Shown: in pieces, positions 2,908 to 25,089 of the stretch | Numbering within the stretch: position 1 is the first letter of the stretch | How the letters are laid out: each line of letters begins with the position of its first letter | Assembly (NCBI GenBank): GCA_019912885.1 | Contig: JAIOHV010000149.1 | Span: 1 to 33,440 of the forward strand | DNA from: a bacterium | GTDB taxonomy: Bacteria; Lernaellota; Lernaellaia; JACKCT01 | Direction of reading: 5' to 3' | DNA length: 33,440 nucleotides | Program-made: the position numbers and the translations under genes | The notes under the pieces: model-generated | Told to the model about the DNA's origin: nothing | The model's input: the letters and a program-made list of their open reading frames with translations, nothing else | Databases searched by the model: none

Positions 2908-4071
2908 ATGGCGATTCCGGTTTCCTACAATCTTCGCAACGTGATCCGCCGCCCCGTTTCGACCGCCATGACCGCGATCGGCATCGGCCTCACGGTCGCG
3001 ATTTTCATCGGCGCCCTGTCGCTGGCCGCCGGATTTGAACAAGCGGTCAAAACCAGCGGTTCTCCGGACAACATTCTGGTGACGCGAAAAGGCGCGGACG
3101 CCGAACTGTCGAGCGCGGTATCGCGCGAAGCGGCGAATATCGTCCGCGCACATCCTTCCGTGGCCGCGGGCTCCGACAATCGCCCGCTCGCAAGCCCGGA
3201 GGTCGTCGTGCTGATCGTGCTTGATCGCCTGGGCCAGCCGGGATCCTCCAATGTAACGATCCGCGGCGTGGACCGCGAGGCGCTCGCGTTGCGCGACAAC
3301 CTGAAGGTCGTCGAGGGACGCATGTTCGAACCCGGCCGCTCGGAGGTTATCGCCGGCAGGCGGCTCGCCGGACGATTCCAGGGGATCGACGTCGGCGGTA
3401 CGGTCAAGTTTGGCGCGCACGAGTTCACGATCGTCGGCCTGTTTGAGGCCGGCGGATCGAATTTCGAATCCGAAATCTGGGGCGACAACAAGGTCATCAT
3501 GCCCGCGGCGCGAGGCGAGGTTTTTCAAAGCGTCACGTTTCGCCTTGCGCCCGGCGCGAATTTTCACGACGTGAAGCACGAACTGGAAGCCGATCCACGC
3601 TTGCAGGTGGACGTTGAGCGCGAGTCGGAATATTACGCCAAACAATCGGAGATGCTCGCGAACATCGTCCGGTTTCTCGGCGTGTTCATCACGGTCATCA
3701 TGGGCGTCGGCGCGGTCTTCGGCGCGATGAACACGATGTACGCCGCGGTCGGCCAGCGCACGCGCGAGATCGCGACGATGCTGGTGCTCGGCTTTTCGCC
3801 ATTCATCATCCTGGTTTCGTTTCTGATCGAGTCCGTCGTCGTCGCGCTGATCGGCGGCGCGTTCGGCGCGCTTTTGTCGCTGCCGATCAACGGCATCTCC
3901 ACGGGCACGACGAATTTTCAGTCGTTTTCCGAAACGGCGTTCGAATTTCGGGTGACGCCCGGCGCGATCGTAACCGGCCTTGTCGCCGCGGCGATCATGG
4001 GATTCGTCGGCGGCCTCCTGCCGTCGATCCGCGCCGCGCGCCACACGCCGGCGCAAGCGCTTCGCGGCTGA
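2908..4071 (+). CDS. FtsX/MacB-type ABC permease, second subunit
   Basis: Second inner-membrane permease (387 residues) of the exporter. It starts with ATG two bases after the previous stop. It has one N-terminal helix (TAIGIGLTVAIFIGALSLA), a periplasmic domain, and three C-terminal helices with the FtsX core (NTMYAAVGQRTREIATMLVL) and the ending SIRAARHTPAQALRG. The frame is open far upstream, but that part is out of frame with, and hidden behind, the first permease; the ATG at 2908 gives the normal N-terminus. Its 3' end is three bases from the convergent pirin gene, leaving no terminator. Confidence 0.9.
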   Translation: MAIPVSYNLRNVIRRPVSTAMTAIGIGLTVAIFIGALSLAAGFEQAVKTSGSPDNILVTRKGADAELSSAVSREAANIVRAHPSVAAGSDNRPLASPEVVVLIVLDRLGQPGSSNVTIRGVDREALALRDNLKVVEGRMFEPGRSEVIAGRRLAGRFQGIDVGGTVKFGAHEFTIVGLFEAGGSNFESEIWGDNKVIMPAARGEVFQSVTFRLAPGANFHDVKHELEADPRLQVDVERESEYYAKQSEMLANIVRFLGVFITVIMGVGAVFGAMNTMYAAVGQRTREIATMLVLGFSPFIILVSFLIESVVVALIGGAFGALLSLPINGISTGTTNFQSFSETAFEFRVTPGAIVTGLVAAAIMGFVGGLLPSIRAARHTPAQALRG

Positions 4072-4074
4072 GCC

Positions 4075-4773
4075 TCAGACAAGATCGAATAAAACGATCT
4101 CCGCCGGCGACGTCGCGCGGATGACGATCTCACTTGTGTCCTCGACCGCCGCCGCGTCGCCCTCGTTCAGCGCCTCGCCGTTCACCGTCGCGCCGCCCTT
4201 GGCCATTTGAATCCAGATGTGGCGATCGGGCGTTGTCTCGTACCGCACCTTGGCGCCATCCGTGAGGATCGACGCGTACACGCGCACGTCCTGGCGGATC
4301 GTCACCGCGCTGTCGGATTCGTCCGGCGAGGCGATGAGCGCAAGCTTGTCCGTCCGGGCGTCAAGCGGCAGGCGGCGCTCCTCGTAGGACGGTTTCAGGC
4401 CCCGTACGTTCGGTTCGAACCAGATTTGCAGCAGATGCGCTTTTTCGGTGTCCGACGCGTTGAATTCGCTGTGCACGATCCCGGTGCCGGCGGTCATTTT
4501 CTGGATATCGCCATGTCGGATCGTCGATTTGTGCCCCATGCTGTCCTCGTGCGCGAGCGCGCCCTCGAGCATGTAGGTCAGGATCTCCATGTCGCGGTGC
4601 GGATGCATCGGAAATCCGCCGCTCGGCTCGATCCAGTCGTCGTTGAGCACGCGCATGGCCCGGTAGTTCATGTGGTCGGGGTCGTTGTAGCTGCCGAACG
4701 AAAACGAATGGTTCGAGTGCAGCCAGCCGAACTCGGCAACGCCCCGGTCTTTCGATCGTCGAATCGTGATCAT
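4075..4773 (-). CDS. Pirin family protein (bicupin, YhhW-like)
   Basis: Cupin-fold metalloprotein of the pirin family, 232 residues, the usual length. The N-terminal cupin holds the expected metal ligands: His57 and His59 in PMHPHRDME, then His101 and Glu103 in GIVHSEFN, at almost the numbering of human pirin. Characterised bacterial members act as quercetin 2,3-dioxygenases or redox sensors; the natural substrate here is unknown. The start is supported by an AGGAGC Shine-Dalgarno. The gene is divergent from the FPD-repeat gene with only 33 bases between starts, so the promoters must overlap. Confidence 0.93.
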   Translation of the reverse strand: MITIRRSKDRGVAEFGWLHSNHSFSFGSYNDPDHMNYRAMRVLNDDWIEPSGGFPMHPHRDMEILTYMLEGALAHEDSMGHKSTIRHGDIQKMTAGTGIVHSEFNASDTEKAHLLQIWFEPNVRGLKPSYEERRLPLDARTDKLALIASPDESDSAVTIRQDVRVYASILTDGAKVRYETTPDRHIWIQMAKGGATVNGEALNEGDAAAVEDTSEIVIRATSPAEIVLFDLV

Positions 4774-4806: not shown

Positions 4807-5178
4807 ATGTCCAGATTACGTCGAAGTTTTTCCTCGCGGGAATTCCTGGCGGCGGCCATTGTTATCGCCGTTACCGTCGTCGCCGCCCTCGCGATCGCGT
4901 CGCGGTCGTCCGCCGCGGAAAAAGCGGTTTCGAAGGACTGCACGTTCAACGGGAAACCGCTCCACGGCAAGGTGAAATACGTCAGCAATTTTCCGGACAT
5001 CAAGGTGAAGATCGTGGATTCGTTTCCCGATCTGAAGGTCAAAATGGTGACGAACTTTCCGGACTCCTGCGGCAAGTGGCAGATCGTCGAAAACTTCCCG
5101 GATTTTACCGTGAAGTTTGTCGACTCGTTCCCGGACATCAAGATCAAATACGTGGATAGCTTTCCGGGTCTTCCGTAA
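4807..5178 (+). CDS. Small exported/membrane-anchored protein of 11-residue FPD repeats
   Basis: Protein of 123 residues, function unknown. A basic N-terminus and hydrophobic segment (about residues 13-32) form a signal peptide or anchor, with a possible cleavage after SSA-AEK. The rest is almost wholly repeats with the consensus (I/L)KVKhV(D/S/T)(S/N)FPD, h being hydrophobic. FPD occurs at residues 62, 73, 84, 97 and 108, with a last FPG at 119. Spacings are 11, 11, 13, 11 and 11; the 13 is an insert carrying Cys88, which could pair with Cys45 as a disulfide. Alternating hydrophobic residues with a fixed turn suggest a stacked beta-strand (solenoid-like) fold. I have seen similar FPD-repeat proteins called hypothetical, but cannot name a family. 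The 3' end overlaps the convergent DUF4202 gene by 35 bases. Confidence 0.85.
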   Translation: MSRLRRSFSSREFLAAAIVIAVTVVAALAIASRSSAAEKAVSKDCTFNGKPLHGKVKYVSNFPDIKVKIVDSFPDLKVKMVTNFPDSCGKWQIVENFPDFTVKFVDSFPDIKIKYVDSFPGLP

Positions 5179-5770
5179 CCTCGCCGGCGAGCGCGGCCTC
5201 GATCGTCGCGCGCGCCGCGTCGGATATCGGCAAGGCCAGCGCGGCGTCCCGGCCGCGCGGCGTCATTTTCGCCCACGTGCGGCGAATGATATTCGGCATC
5301 TTGGCGGGGTCGGTTTTCGCGGCGAACGCATCCAACTCGTAGCGGATGAACACAAGCGCGATCGCGTCCTCGAGAAGTTGCGTCAATGGGTCAGACGCAA
5401 GGTCCTCCTTGCGGACAATCGCCTGGACGCGCGCGATCGTCGCGTCGTCGTATCCCACGTCGCCAAGGATCTCGCCTGCGATGCGCGCATGCTCCAGCGC
5501 GGCGTCGCGCCGCCAACGATGGTAGCCAGCGCGCCCCTCGGGATAGCGGTCGCGCGGAAATTCCCATCGCCGGACGTGCTGCGCGCGGGCGGCCAGCAGC
5601 ACGTCGTCCGGGGCGTCCGGATCGAGCGCGAGCACCGCTTCCGTGAGACGGCGCGCATAGAGCAGCTCCTTGGGGATGCCGGCGCCGTCTACGCTCTCCG
5701 AGCGCGGATCCCGCGCATTTTCCGCGTCCAGCCGCGTAATTGCTGCCGCGAATCGTGGATCGGCTGACAT
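5144..5770 (-). CDS. DUF4202 family protein
   Basis: Soluble, mostly helical protein of 208 residues matching DUF4202 from memory of the family. Conserved-looking blocks are the N-terminal AITRLDAENARDP, PKELLYARRLTEAVL, AARAQHVRRWEFPRDRYPEG, AGYHRWR, IVRKEDLASDP and the final KMTPRGRDAALALP. The many His, Arg and Glu residues in AQHVRRWE and YHRWR suggest an active or metal site, but no activity is known to me. I chose the ATG at 5770 because it has a GGAGGG Shine-Dalgarno and matches the family start; a TTG 24 bases upstream is possible. Its 3' end overlaps the FPD-repeat gene by 35 bases. Confidence 0.85.
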   Translation of the reverse strand: MSADPRFAAAITRLDAENARDPRSESVDGAGIPKELLYARRLTEAVLALDPDAPDDVLLAARAQHVRRWEFPRDRYPEGRAGYHRWRRDAALEHARIAGEILGDVGYDDATIARVQAIVRKEDLASDPLTQLLEDAIALVFIRYELDAFAAKTDPAKMPNIIRRTWAKMTPRGRDAALALPISDAARATIEAALAGEVTEDPESYPRI

Positions 5771-5880
5771 TTCGTGCGTCCCTCCGCTTATCAACGGCGG
5801 TTTTCTCGTGTTAACTAGAGCCGCCTGTTTCGTTCCTGATATCGTTTCGATCGGTCCCCGGCAAGGCGGGGGGCCACGGG

Positions 5881-11379: not shown

Positions 11380-13713
11380 TTAAGGTATTATGGACTCGTA
11401 GGCAGCTCCACTGTCACCATGAACCTCGAAAAAGTTCCCATTTTTATCGAATTTCGCACTTTGCATTGTACGCGCTCGATCGATAAAAGACCTTTCCCAA
11501 CCGATTCCGTTAAAAAAGTAGACGGCGATCTCTGCATTTTCGTAGTCTCCCACGGCCGCGCCTATGAAGCCAGTGCCTGTCAGCGTGACGCTGACGTAAC
11601 GTGCATCGGCGTCAAGATCGGTCCATTCCCAGGCACCATCTGCGTTCGTCGCATAGCGAACACCAAAATCGTTTTGATACAAAACATGCACGATCCCATC
11701 GCTATCGACGAAAATCGATTCATATCCCTTGTCGGTCACGGGAAGAGTGGCATCGATAACATCGAATCGCCATGTTCCCTCGTCGTTTGTCGCATAGAGA
11801 ACGGCATTCGATTGACTATAAGTCAAATAAATAGAGCCGTCGTCGTCATAAAAAATATCACCGACGTCCGCGCCCATCGGATCGACCCACTCAAAAAACC
11901 AGTCGCCGCCATCGTCCTGCTCCCCAACATGCACTCCGGGCGCGTCATAGCCGAAAAATGTTACCGCGCACCTACCTGTGGCATTACACGAAATCCGTGG
12001 ATGGTCCGCATCGTCGTTGATCGGTGTCGCCGTCCAGGCTCCCGACTCGTTCGTCACGTAAGTTATGCCAAAAACATCGATGACAAGATGTGCGATTCCG
12101 TTGACATCCAAGTCGAAATCTGACCAGAGCCCAACTCCATAGTCGTCGGTTATCAATTCAAACGACCAATCGAGACTGTTTTCGCCTCGTGTCGCGTAGA
12201 CATATCTATCACCGGCCTGGTCGCCGATAATCGCGTGATGCAAGTTTTCGCCGTCAATATCCATCCATGCTAAATTAAATAGTCCAGAATCCAGCGTCGC
12301 TTGCTTCCAAGCGCCCGACTCGCGCTGAACGTATATCGCCGCGAATCCGTCGTCCGAATAATATACCACGCGCGGCTCGCCGTTGGCGTCAAGCGCGATC
12401 GCAGCGTTTTCGGTCCATTCCTCTTCGTTGAGGGAGGCAAGTTCGCGATGCCATGTCCCCGAAGCGTTGGTGAAATACGTCGCTCCTACGGGCGACGGTA
12501 TGACGTCGTTGCCCGCCCAATCCGCGACGTGGGAGAACCCATTCTCGTCGATGACGAGATAGGGATCCCAGCCTTCGCCGAGAACTCCACCCATGGGAGA
12601 AAAGGTCCATCCAGACGGCGTATGGGTGCCGTATTGCAATAGAAAATTTCTTAACAGCGCCATCCTCGGTTCGCCATCGATCCCGATCGCGATCGACGGG
12701 CGAAGGATGCTTCCCGACGGAAATTCCGTTGTCCACGTCCCACCCCGGTTTGTCGCGTAACCGAGATAGCTCGCCGTGAAATATTGGATCGTCATTGCTG
12801 CGACGTGCGCAGAGCCGTCCGGCGCCACGGCGATCGACGTGTGCTTTCCCCAATCGCCCTCTGCGATGATCGTTTCGACGGACCACGTGCCGCCGGACTT
12901 CGCCGCGTAACGAATGTCGGCGTTATCGCGCTCGACGTAAGCCAGGTGTGGCTCGCCTTCAGCACTCAGGGCGATCGACGCGTGTGCCTGATCGATATGA
13001 TCGTCCGGAAATTGGTGAAAAGCGCCGATCGAATCGACCGTTTCGATGACCCACGTCCCGCTTTCGTCCGAGGCGTATTTCAGCGCGTCGTTCCAGAGGT
13101 CGGTATACACGAGATGAAAGCGACCAGCGGCGTCCATCTTCATGTCCACGCCGGAGGCCATGAAGTCGATGGTTCGCGCCTCGCACGAAAATTCGCCGCC
13201 CGCGTCTTCCGTGATCGAGTAGATGCGCACGTCGCGGCCCTTCACCGCGGCGACGTACGTCGTGTCGTCCGCGCCGATCTGGATCGCCATGCCGGTCGAC
13301 CCGGGCATCCCGCCCGCGATCATCGAGACGCACGCCCCATCCGGGTTCAGGAACCCGCGCGGGCACGGCTCGTCGTCGTGCTCCCAGACCTCTTCGCAAA
13401 TACCCGGCGGGGGTAACTCGTCGTCGTCGTCCGCATCGTCGTCCGCGTCGTCATCGCCGGACGAATCGTCGTCGTCCGCGTCGTCATCGAATCCAGAGTC
13501 GTCGTCGAAAGTGGAATCGTCGTCGCTCGCCGAGTCGTCGTCGTCGTCAATTGGCGCGGACACGCCATCGCTATTGTCGTCGTCGCCGCACGTGCAGCCG
13601 GGGAGCGCGAGGAGAAGCGGGAGGGCGAGGAGGAAGAGAGCGCAAAACGCAAGGAAGCGGCTCGCGGTTTTTTGCCGCGATTCGGCGCGCCACGATTTTT
13701 CGGCGACGCTCAT
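11380..13713 (-). CDS. Large lipoprotein: Asp-rich linker plus beta-propeller-like repeats
   Basis: Surface or periplasmic lipoprotein of 777 residues. The signal peptide ends in lipobox LPGC with lipidated Cys40, then an Asp/Ser/Ala linker (about residues 44-98). The rest is roughly a dozen repeats of 35-50 residues with the theme hxhDxxGxPHLhY...hYATNxxGTW, for example IALSAEGEPHLAYVE, IAVAPDGSAHVAAM, LVIDENGFSHVADW, IALDANGEPRVVYY and IFYDDDGSIYLTYS. This is typical of BNR/six- or seven-bladed propeller repeats, perhaps two propellers. No catalytic motif is seen; a binding or adhesive role is inference. The start is fixed by GGGAGGG before ATG 13713. The 3' half is visibly AT-richer than the 5' half. 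Confidence 0.88.
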   Translation of the reverse strand: MSVAEKSWRAESRQKTASRFLAFCALFLLALPLLLALPGCTCGDDDNSDGVSAPIDDDDDSASDDDSTFDDDSGFDDDADDDDSSGDDDADDDADDDDELPPPGICEEVWEHDDEPCPRGFLNPDGACVSMIAGGMPGSTGMAIQIGADDTTYVAAVKGRDVRIYSITEDAGGEFSCEARTIDFMASGVDMKMDAAGRFHLVYTDLWNDALKYASDESGTWVIETVDSIGAFHQFPDDHIDQAHASIALSAEGEPHLAYVERDNADIRYAAKSGGTWSVETIIAEGDWGKHTSIAVAPDGSAHVAAMTIQYFTASYLGYATNRGGTWTTEFPSGSILRPSIAIGIDGEPRMALLRNFLLQYGTHTPSGWTFSPMGGVLGEGWDPYLVIDENGFSHVADWAGNDVIPSPVGATYFTNASGTWHRELASLNEEEWTENAAIALDANGEPRVVYYSDDGFAAIYVQRESGAWKQATLDSGLFNLAWMDIDGENLHHAIIGDQAGDRYVYATRGENSLDWSFELITDDYGVGLWSDFDLDVNGIAHLVIDVFGITYVTNESGAWTATPINDDADHPRISCNATGRCAVTFFGYDAPGVHVGEQDDGGDWFFEWVDPMGADVGDIFYDDDGSIYLTYSQSNAVLYATNDEGTWRFDVIDATLPVTDKGYESIFVDSDGIVHVLYQNDFGVRYATNADGAWEWTDLDADARYVSVTLTGTGFIGAAVGDYENAEIAVYFFNGIGWERSFIDRARTMQSAKFDKNGNFFEVHGDSGAAYESIIP
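13420..13584 (-). repeat. Asp-rich low-complexity coding repeat (linker of the propeller lipoprotein)
   Basis: GAC/GAT-rich coding stretch giving DDDDDSASDDDSTFDDDSGF and similar runs, directly after the lipobox of the lipoprotein encoded at 11380-13713. It has the same style as the linkers at 22909-23172 and 33366-33440. Confidence 0.9.
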
Positions 13714-13836
13714 GAACCCTCCCTCATTGAGCAGAGCGATATTCGCACTGACAGGATCATTTTGTGTAGCAATTTTTGCTTTTCGGCGCGTCGCGCCGCG
13801 GTGTCTACACGGCGCATTCGACTTCGCAAACAACGT

Positions 13837-22778: not shown

Positions 22779-22830
22779 CATGCGCCTTTAATTGGGAGCA
22801 TGTTCGCGCTTTTTGCGCGAATACAAACCG

Positions 22831-25089
22831 ATGCGCACAAATCATTCCGCGTGGATCGCGATATTCATTTTCGCGCTCGCCGCCATCGTATCCGGCTGCG
22901 GTTGTGGCGACGATGACGATGACGACGGAACGCCTTCCTACAATTCTCCGACGCCGCCCGACGATGACGCGCCGGACGACGATGGTGTTGACGACGACAC
23001 CGGCGACGATGACTTCGATGACGACAGCTCCGATGACGACGTCGATGACGATAGCGACGACGACGCCACGGATGACGACGACGCATCCGATGACGACACC
23101 GGCGACGACGATACCGCTGATGACGACACGTCCGACGACGACACCGGCGATGACGACACCGGCGACGACGATATCGAAGGCGTGACCATCGTCTTTGACC
23201 GTGCCGATCCCGACTTCTGGGCGTTGCCGTTCCCGAGCGATCTGCATCTCGATCCGGACGGCACGCTCGCCGTTCAGAACTTCCCGAATCCCCGAAACTC
23301 GCCGGTCATCGCGCGCTATCTCGATGTCGGCGATCGCGACGTATCCGGCTTCGGGACAAACGGCGCGACGTTTTTCCAGTTCACCGGTCCCATCGATCCG
23401 GCGACGCTGCCGGCCGACGAAATCGAGTCGCTGCAAACGGCCTCGCCGGTCTTCCTGGTCAGCGTCGATCCCGACGCCGCGGATTTCGGCGCACGTTATC
23501 CGCTCCAGTTCAAATTCAGCGAAAACGCGTCCGTTTATGGCCCGCCGAATTTCCTTTCGATCCTGCCGGTGCCCGGAGTCGCGCTGTTGCACGACACGAC
23601 CTACGCGGTGGTGCTGACGACCGATCTCCTTGATCCCGACGGCGAGCCGCTCGTCTCCAATCCAACCGTGAAGGCGGCTCTTGCCGGCACGGCCGCCGAT
23701 GCCGAATTGAACGCCCTTTTCGCGCCGCTGGCCGGGTGGCTGACCGACAACGGATATTTTTTCACGGAAATCGTGGGCGCGACCGTTTACACGACTTCCG
23801 ATCCGCGCCCGCGCTACGCGGCGCTGCGCGACGATGCCCTGACGCAAGACCTCGACCCCATCGATCCGGGAACGCTGTCGTTCGAGCGCGCACAAACGCG
23901 CTATTACGACGTGCGCGGCGAAGTCGAAATCCCGATCTACCAGCAGGGAGATCCGCCGTACCTTTTCGCCGGCGGCAACATCAAATACGACGCGAACGGC
24001 GATCCGGAATTATATTCTACGCTGACGACACGCTTTGCGCTTTCGATCCCCAAGGGCGACATGCCGCCAGGCGGCTGGCCGATCATGGTCTACAGCCACG
24101 GTACGGGCGGCGACTGGGACAGCTTTATGAACAGCGACCAGACTGCCGACCTCATGGCGCACGCCGGCATCGCGGTCGTGTCCATCGACGCGGTGAACCA
24201 CGGCACGCGCAATCCGTGGGGTGGCGGCGAGGACTTGTTGTTTTACAACGCGCTCAACCCCGAGTCGTTCCGCGACAACGTCGTGCAGTCGGGCGTCGAA
24301 CTCATGGTCGTGCTGCGCCAGGCGGCGGACCTCGTGGTGCCCAAGGAGCTGATCGGGATTTCGAACGACGCGATTTTCGACATGGAATACGCGTATTACG
24401 CCGGGCATTCGCAGGGGTCCACCGTCGCGCCGGTGACGGTGACACTCGATCCCGATATTCGCGCCGCGTTCCTGTCCGGCGCGGGCGCGTACATCATCTA
24501 CACGATGCTTTACAAGGACGCGCCGTTCCCGATCCGGCCGCTCGTGGGGCTTGGCCTGTTCCTGAACGCGCAGGAGATGGCGGCGGAACTTGACGAGTTC
24601 CACCCGGCGCTGTCTCTCGTGCAGCACCTCGCGGATTCCGTCGACGGCGCGGGGCTGAACCGCTACTACTACCTGGACACCATCGACGGCTCACGCCCAA
24701 AGCACATCTTCCAATCCCAGGGCATCACGGATACCTACGTCACCTGGCAAAACGAGCACGTCTTCTCGGTGACTTCCGGGCTCGACGTCGTCGGCGACGT
24801 GCTGCTCGACGACCTCGCGTGGCGAACGCTGCTGGCCGGCGGCCAGTTGCTCGAGGATGCCGGCATCAGCGGCAACGAGTTCGATCTGCACGGGAACCCG
24901 ATGACGGCCGTCACCGCGCAATACCCCGCCCCCGAAGGCGGGCAGGACGGGCATTTCGTCTACAAGTATTTCCCGTCGCTACGTCACCGCGTGGGCTGCT
25001 TTTTCAAAACCGATCTCGAGGACGGCATCCCGACCTTCGTGCCCGAGCAGGAAGCCGGGTCCGAGGACCAATACGCGCCGTGTGACTAG
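22831..25089 (+). CDS. Lipoprotein alpha/beta hydrolase with Asp-rich linker (bacterial lipase/VolA-like)
   Basis: Lipoprotein of 752 residues. The signal peptide ends in lipobox VSGC (lipidated Cys23), then an Asp/Thr/Gly linker (27-114). Residues about 117-360 (WALPFPSDLHLDPDGTLAVQ and on) resemble the N-terminal domain of bacterial virulence-factor lipases such as VolA. The catalytic domain has the oxyanion loop YSHGTGG (421-427) and nucleophile elbow GHSQG with Ser527; His in GQDGHFVYKYFPS is the likely last triad member. It probably cleaves an ester or lipid at the cell surface or in the periplasm; substrate unknown. I chose ATG 22831 because it begins directly with the signal peptide; an upstream TTG (22792) is unlikely. 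Confidence 0.87.
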   Translation: MRTNHSAWIAIFIFALAAIVSGCGCGDDDDDDGTPSYNSPTPPDDDAPDDDGVDDDTGDDDFDDDSSDDDVDDDSDDDATDDDDASDDDTGDDDTADDDTSDDDTGDDDTGDDDIEGVTIVFDRADPDFWALPFPSDLHLDPDGTLAVQNFPNPRNSPVIARYLDVGDRDVSGFGTNGATFFQFTGPIDPATLPADEIESLQTASPVFLVSVDPDAADFGARYPLQFKFSENASVYGPPNFLSILPVPGVALLHDTTYAVVLTTDLLDPDGEPLVSNPTVKAALAGTAADAELNALFAPLAGWLTDNGYFFTEIVGATVYTTSDPRPRYAALRDDALTQDLDPIDPGTLSFERAQTRYYDVRGEVEIPIYQQGDPPYLFAGGNIKYDANGDPELYSTLTTRFALSIPKGDMPPGGWPIMVYSHGTGGDWDSFMNSDQTADLMAHAGIAVVSIDAVNHGTRNPWGGGEDLLFYNALNPESFRDNVVQSGVELMVVLRQAADLVVPKELIGISNDAIFDMEYAYYAGHSQGSTVAPVTVTLDPDIRAAFLSGAGAYIIYTMLYKDAPFPIRPLVGLGLFLNAQEMAAELDEFHPALSLVQHLADSVDGAGLNRYYYLDTIDGSRPKHIFQSQGITDTYVTWQNEHVFSVTSGLDVVGDVLLDDLAWRTLLAGGQLLEDAGISGNEFDLHGNPMTAVTAQYPAPEGGQDGHFVYKYFPSLRHRVGCFFKTDLEDGIPTFVPEQEAGSEDQYAPCD
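22909..23172 (+). repeat. Asp-rich coding repeat with 15-base tandem units
   Basis: Encodes the Asp-rich linker (residues 27-114) of the lipoprotein hydrolase. From 23089 to 23163 there are five tandem 15-base units close to GATGACGACACCGGC (23089, 23104, 23119, 23134, 23149) plus a partial sixth, giving the pentapeptide DDDTG/A/S. Such in-frame units can change number by slippage without breaking the frame. Confidence 0.85.

Follow-up and report, generated by a model that had tools for sequence, protein, structure and literature searches.

What fold does a small, apparently exported protein adopt when its mature part carries six copies of an eleven-residue unit, and what might such a protein do? 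The question is raised by a gene at positions 4807–5178 (plus strand) of the window, the whole 33,440-nucleotide stretch of bacterial DNA analyzed here. The gene, taken from the open reading frame (ORF) list, starts with ATG and encodes 123 amino acids, the stop codon being included in the coordinates. A sequence-only reading had described its product as an exported repeat protein with an unusual stacked-strand fold, from a family without known function. Taken as a whole, our results are best explained if the protein comes from an exported branch of the Q9PR55 (UU089.1) knotted beta-repeat family, an explanation that we consider somewhat likely to hold in all its parts.

Repeat Architecture of the Window Protein

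The N-terminal 37 residues (4807–4917; this and the other features of the gene lie on the plus strand) resemble a signal peptide, with an 11-residue hydropathy of 3.12. The cleavage site was read by eye, not by a program, after SSAA, and a cut there is likely. The mature domain would then run from E38 to P123 (86 amino acids, 4918–5175), and it is for this part that six strands are modeled by AlphaFold2 and a profile match to Q9PR55 is found. A signal-like hydrophobic segment precedes 79 of the 82 scored domains (the window protein included). Together with the strong segment ending in SSAA ahead of the mature part of the window protein, this agrees with the earlier view that the product is exported.

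The six repeats of the window protein follow the pattern x-K-V-K-h-V-x-[SN]-F-P-[DG]. Repeats 1 to 3 read KVKYVSNFPD (4969–4998), KVKIVDSFPD (5002–5031) and KVKMVTNFPD (5035–5064), and repeats 4 to 6 read KWQIVENFPD (5074–5103), TVKFVDSFPD (5107–5136) and KIKYVDSFPG (5140–5169). The Trp of repeat 4 is present in 30 of 31 thinned homologues. Two cysteines accompany the repeats and are present together: Cys45 (codon 4939–4941) precedes repeat 1, and Cys88 (codon 5068–5070) lies within a two-residue insert that separates repeats 3 and 4 and is kept in homologues. FP[DG] occurs at residues 62, 73, 84, 97, 108 and 119, a spacing of 11-11-13-11-11. The six copies and their spacing are thus as first described, but the consensus proposed at that time needs corrections in repeats 1, 4, 5 and 6; for example, the unit is preceded by G in repeats 1 and 4 but by F in repeat 5.

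When the mature part was shuffled 200,000 times, FP[DG] reached a maximum of three occurrences (in 22 shuffles), compared with the six observed. At the DNA level the repeats have a mean pairwise nucleotide identity of 0.63 (15 pairs) and use both Ser codon boxes. Since the six units differ at silent sites, a recent DNA duplication is ruled out. The repeat register, with the two-residue insert after repeat 3, is kept in 38 aligned sequences (the window protein included), although some turns are altered, e.g., to GED. The loss of register in close homologues that would have spoken against the repeat description was therefore not seen.

Family Assignment

A phmmer search of the PDB with the window protein returned the Ureaplasma urealyticum protein UU089.1, represented by 8iwa and four further entries, with an E of 1.5e-9. 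UU089.1 is Q9PR55, and a 38-row profile matched it over five repeats with an E of 2.9e-15, the next match having an E of 0.67; Q9PR55 is the sole significant PDB match of this profile. Identity between the two proteins is ∼37%. Q9PR55 (PDB 8iwa, 8iwb, 8iwc, 8jrm and 8w68) has eleven-residue KVxhVxSFPD-like repeats, as does the window protein, and in both the spacing widens between repeats 3 and 4; in the alignments, repeat 3 of Q9PR55 is longer by two residues. The aligned residues 24–85 of Q9PR55 hold five repeats, whereas the window protein has six, along with a signal segment and a Cys pair.

The AlphaFold2 model of the mature 86 residues (38 rows) has six strands, with a pLDDT of 95.1 and a pTM of 0.82. 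When it was compared with the PDB by Foldseek, the best four rows were Q9PR55 chains (E 2.9e-6 to 4.3e-5, probability 1.00); the fifth row had an E of 1.8, and only Q9PR55 entries lay below E 1. The TM score was 0.56 in the best row and ∼0.3 in the next three, and the rmsd was 3.4 in one Q9PR55 row and about 10 in the other three. VIA gave a Z of 7.2 (rmsd 2.8 over 68 residues) for the model against Q9PR55, which is middling if taken alone, given that a Z below 8 by itself may reflect merely a common arrangement. Four of 71 compared chains reached Z 2, and the entries shown were all Q9PR55. The fold assignment is drawn from the convergence of sequence and fold searches on one family, rather than from Z alone. 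As modeled, the window protein and Q9PR55 appear to have the same fold, similar but not superposable throughout, and we are highly confident that the window protein belongs to the Q9PR55 (UU089.1) family and shares its fold. The proposal of an unusual stacked-strand fold is thus upheld in that six strands are predicted and the fold is unusual, but it matches a solved family, that of the 7_1-knotted Q9PR55. Such a match to a characterized fold had been named beforehand as a finding that would speak against the proposal, and the fold is hence odd, but of a kind already known.

No match in Pfam or NCBIfam exceeded the curated cut-offs (best bits 15.1 vs. 28.4 and 14.7 vs. 34.2), and the BFVD library gave none below E 0.2. 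Sub-threshold Pfam and NCBIfam matches (SnoaL, SelT/W/H and others) were put down to chance. In PHROGs, the window protein matched phrog_6462 (103 positions, function unknown) with an E of 2.4e-33, residues 1–86 of the mature protein spanning profile positions 18–103. The match had an E of 2.7e-34 in the scan of the window's own genome, and a Leptospira weilii copy matched with an E of 1e-48. This unannotated profile is uninformative on fold or job. No function emerged from any search, in keeping with the original description of a family without known function.

Predicted Knot

Q9PR55 has a 7_1 knot and its homologue P73136 a 5_1 knot in AlphaFold models (Brems et al., 2022, PMC9278004), and the 7_1 knot is reported to have been confirmed later by crystal structure (PMC11223836; PMC13352647). 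A known caution is that AlphaFold can let one chain cross through another; the authors of this warning allow that knots of this sort might in some instances be genuine, citing 5_1 and 7_1 (PMC10672856).

It is very likely that the window protein is knotted. After export, the signal segment would be removed, leaving an 86-residue chain that would form six short strands joined by FPD turns. By homology, these strands would wind twice round one axis to give a torus knot, 5_1 or 7_1. In the VIA alignment, residues 2–85 of the model are paired with residues 13–84 of the Q9PR55 chain, from which the window protein appears to have one repeat more than Q9PR55; such an extra repeat would fit another knot type. 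The loose superposition likewise suggests that the winding of the window protein may differ from that of Q9PR55.

The same two observations, a best superposition that is loose (three of four Foldseek rows at ∼10 angstroms) and aligned ranges that suggest an extra repeat, could also be accommodated if the exported branch, while of the same family, were an unknotted plain beta-solenoid or other stack, the knot being confined to the signal-less Q9PR55-like branch. Nevertheless, sequence and fold searches of the PDB gave good matches to the knotted entries alone, and the two homologues described by Brems et al. (PMC9278004) differ in knot type, yet both are knotted. An unknotted exported branch is accordingly improbable in our judgment, and a knotted window protein is the reading retained below.

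Three other knotted systems were compared. P73136, considered here through its published description rather than its sequence, has 112 amino acids, a length that would fit 86 amino acids plus a signal peptide. In the knotted solenoid proteins the repeat fold makes the knot, as here, but according to the abstract the knot is 3_1 and the solenoid is of another build (PMC13123833). These solenoids were absent from the PDB profile, Foldseek and VIA rows, although they may still be kin. In designed knotted tandem repeats, a repeat chain winding twice gives a (2,q) torus knot; the designs are helical, whereas the window protein is predicted to consist of beta strands (PMC10598012). The 5_1 design misfolded, and according to its authors identical repeats may have promoted misfolding (PMC10598012).

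Cysteine Pair

Cys45 and Cys88 are located as the sequence-only reading had stated, one before the repeats and the other in the insert, and it had suggested that they pair. Among 83 domains, 47 have both cysteines, 36 have neither and none has a single one at these sites. The fragments or partial domains L046, L048, L049, L050, L054, L089 and L091, a mis-anchored L023 piece, rows of <80 residues, and L052 and L090 (start off pattern) were left out of these counts. L036, L042 and L070 (Cys elsewhere before the domain) and L067 were counted as neither; the phage copy L067 has one partnerless Cys next to the second site. Three Cys changes were placed on a tree in which 41 of the 80 inner branches are unresolved, and one independent pair lies on well-supported branches. 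With so few independent changes, the joint presence of the cysteines is support, not proof.

Disulfide oxidase genes are commoner in Cys-bearing hosts. DsbB or VKOR was detected in 14 of 17 Cys-bearing hosts vs. 1 of 10 Cys-less hosts in which the protein itself was inspected for Cys (Fisher p 7.5e-4, kinship ignored), all hosts being picked by hand. The Cys-less host in question carries VKOR. Five Selenomonadaceae-type hosts (G078, G087, G097, G101 and G108) are excluded from this count, and with them the Cys-less figure is 1 of 15. A DSBA-like domain over the cut-off was found in 16 of 17 Cys-bearing and 3 of 10 Cys-less hosts. Neither DsbB nor VKOR was found in the window's own genome, which has one DSBA-like domain.

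The joint presence or absence of the two residues and the oxidase contrast both favor the suggested pairing, and Cys45 and Cys88 probably form a disulfide. As the insert splits repeats 1–3 from repeats 4–6, such a bond would clamp the start of the wind to its middle.

Turn and Core Residues

The repeats were compared in 31 homologues thinned to <75% identity, with the expectation derived from repeats dealt among proteins. The residue before F is alike within a protein at 0.64 vs. 0.33 expected (z 19.4, like all z values here uncorrected for the tree), and F itself gives a z of 15.6. Outward strand positions 0 and 2 have a weak within-protein likeness (z 5.3 and 3.8), and at core positions 1 and 3 it is about zero or slightly negative. 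Residues at core positions 1 and 3 depend on the repeat number rather than on the protein, and those at positions 5, 6 and 7 do the reverse. Turns of the Burkholderia copy are IAP throughout, and those of a second Leptospira-type copy are mostly YGED or YSED; the window protein's own turns mix N and S.

Within-protein likeness of turns could in principle stem from gene conversion or base composition rather than from structure or binding. Ala turns are seen in GC-rich loci, and third bases at matching positions are slightly more alike for D (0.612 and 0.556), K (0.603 and 0.572) and F (0.600 and 0.567). Against base composition, the signal for the residue before F persists within GC bins (z 15.3). 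As for gene conversion, V (0.390 and 0.379), S (0.361 and 0.367), N (0.586 and 0.586) and E (0.542 and 0.606) have no third-base excess, both Ser codon boxes are used in 34 of 59 Ser-rich genes, and the core positions are not homogenized. With an excess at silent third bases that is slight at most (largest for D), gene conversion is unlikely to be the cause, and we give this pair of explanations little chance overall.

These data represent a new finding: (i) turns are alike across the six repeats of a protein; (ii) the core is repeat-specific; and (iii) silent sites hardly follow. Repeat-specific core residues could distinguish the strands and fix their threading, and a core acting as a threading guide fits the suggestion that identical repeats may have promoted the misfolding of the 5_1 design (PMC10598012). 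Turn residues alike in all six repeats could present a single repeated surface, although their likeness may reflect packing rather than binding.

Distribution and Variants

A scan of species genomes with six peptide patterns located homologues at 54 loci, a sample and not a census. By record, the loci belong to Bacteroidota, Leptospira relatives, Deltaproteobacteria (in the old sense), Bdellovibrio relatives, Pseudomonadota, Selenomonas relatives and one Clostridiales. The locus has a GC content of 68% in L025, a record titled Oceanobacillus that is probably misnamed. The window's own genome has a single copy. Of 7 genomes from the window's phylum, 5 had a match, one of them being the genome of the window itself. 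The corresponding counts were 5 of 41 for genomes of mixed kinship, 12 of 30 for one Leptospira-type order and 42 of 101 for one Selenomonas-type family, where a few matches were fragments. The 14 control genomes had no match, and a search of E. coli genomes with one prophage gene as the query gave none.

The exported branch is patchy across phyla, present in prophages and often has two cysteines. Judging by their names, the carriers of the exported form would be two-membraned. The phage copy L066 and the Clostridiales copy L052 are without an export segment, and by eye L052 is the closest to Q9PR55. With L052 as the query, no relative was found in the viral contigs scanned, and a match was found in 1 of 297 genomes of its order, namely the source genome itself.

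An ORF of ∼200 residues in genome G004 (L081:4253–4852, minus strand) encodes two complete six-repeat domains in tandem, with a Cys pair in each and mostly YGED turns in the second. An AlphaFold model of the whole chain (12 sequences) had a pLDDT of 36.4, too low to support anything. By homology, the G004 protein would consist of two domains in one chain, and if both fold, the chain would carry two knots. The gene downstream of this ORF encodes an outer membrane beta-barrel protein.

Other arrangements were noted. In L096 (genome G072), the domain is preceded by a signal, a segment that is Tudor-like by eye and a Ser/Gly linker. One Bacteroidales contig (L045) has two Cys-less copies ∼1 kb apart (3222–3692 and 4824–5255). 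The Selenomonas-type gene copies at L048, L049 and L050 are truncated or frame-broken, hinting at gene turnover.

Gene Neighborhood

In the window, the gene is flanked by a divergent pirin family gene (4075–4773, minus strand; Pfam PF02678, E 1.4e-34) and by a convergent gene for a DUF4202 protein (5144–5794, minus strand; Pfam PF13875, E 8e-65), the end of which overlaps the last 35 bases of the gene. Farther away, the two large ORFs at 11380–13833 (minus strand) and 22792–25089 (plus strand) are exported-looking, with a Gly-Cys start and long Asp-rich (DDDD) stretches, and resemble lipoproteins with an acidic tether.

Neighbors differ from locus to locus (by eye, partly scanned), and an all-against-all BLAST of the ORFs in the loci revealed no conserved gene partner. 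The family and its other frames aside, the largest neighbor cluster was a macro-domain gene at eight Selenomonas-type loci. Given the varied neighbors and the occurrence in phage and non-phage contexts, we read the family gene as a self-sufficient accessory gene.

At the clearly phage loci L065, L067, L068 and L069 the gene is beside terminase or tail genes, and the protein might have been a phage product first, a tail or baseplate part later kept by bacteria. A part of this kind is expected to have no export signal and to be encoded in a late operon, in the same direction as the operon. The phage copy L066 is without an export segment, phrog_6462 covers the window protein, and the Leptospira weilii gene (NZ_CP092209) follows the direction of a tail operon, flanked by a 363-base gene and baseplate J. 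In viral contig L067 the gene is found among baseplate hub genes, but it is opposite in direction to both immediate neighbors, and both the L067 and the Leptospira versions carry hydrophobic export segments, which would be unexpected for a tail part. The L065, L068 and L069 genes run against the terminase genes (in L069 also against a minor tail gene), as is often the case for cargo genes. Three queries found no match in 50,697 phage records, and most of the neighborhoods inspected appear non-phage by eye. We judge a phage tail or baseplate origin very unlikely.

The prophage position of gene copies would also suit a cell-envelope defense or superinfection-exclusion protein carried by prophages and defense islands. 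BLAST clustering placed GmrSD-like genes nearby at four Selenomonas-type loci (L023, L048, L050 and L063); two were borne out by Pfam or PADLOC, and L063 also has a type I methylase. The window protein, however, matched none of the PADLOC families, and its neighbors are pirin and DUF4202. The PADLOC scan of neighbors covered six proteins of three loci, chosen by eye. A defense role is unlikely, and the self-sufficient accessory gene is the reading with which we continue.

Discussion

What is known of this protein is the kind of fold, that of the Q9PR55 knot, and the profile phrog_6462; what is new is the exported, often two-Cys branch. No published description of the exported, phage or tandem form was found among open-license PMC papers, nor a solved structure of the exported branch in PDB searches.

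Export, lone and patchy genes, the stability expected of a clamped knot and matched turns lead us to guess, tentatively, at a stand-alone module of the cell surface or periplasm that would be rigid, resist proteases and act in binding or inhibition. The six turns of such a module would meet a repetitive ligand, and its gene would be an accessory one, found on chromosomes and in temperate phages. Neighborhoods and profile searches yielded no link of the gene to a ligand or pathway.

It is possible, though we put it forward with reserve, that the most complex protein knot occurs in nature mainly as the exported branch. It would be a torus knot clamped by a disulfide and of a type unlike the solved one, built from repeats with a two-part code (a repeat-specific core that fixes threading, and shared turns that form one surface), moved by phages and, in one lineage, doubled in a single chain. 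If this were true, the knot of the doubled chain would be composite, with ten crossings or more.

In the papers cited here, the 7_1 protein knot is discussed via a single small protein from Ureaplasma and, alongside it, P73136. The relative described here, which is exported and often bears two Cys, occurs in several phyla and in prophages and supplies many natural variants, among them Cys-less forms, forms with FPD replaced by IAPD or YGED, a two-domain ORF and a fusion behind another segment. These variants would allow the use of the knot outside the cytosol to be tested. The turn and core pattern, in turn, offers a concrete idea of how similar repeats may be kept from threading out of order, a fault that may have undone the designed 5_1 knot (PMC10598012).
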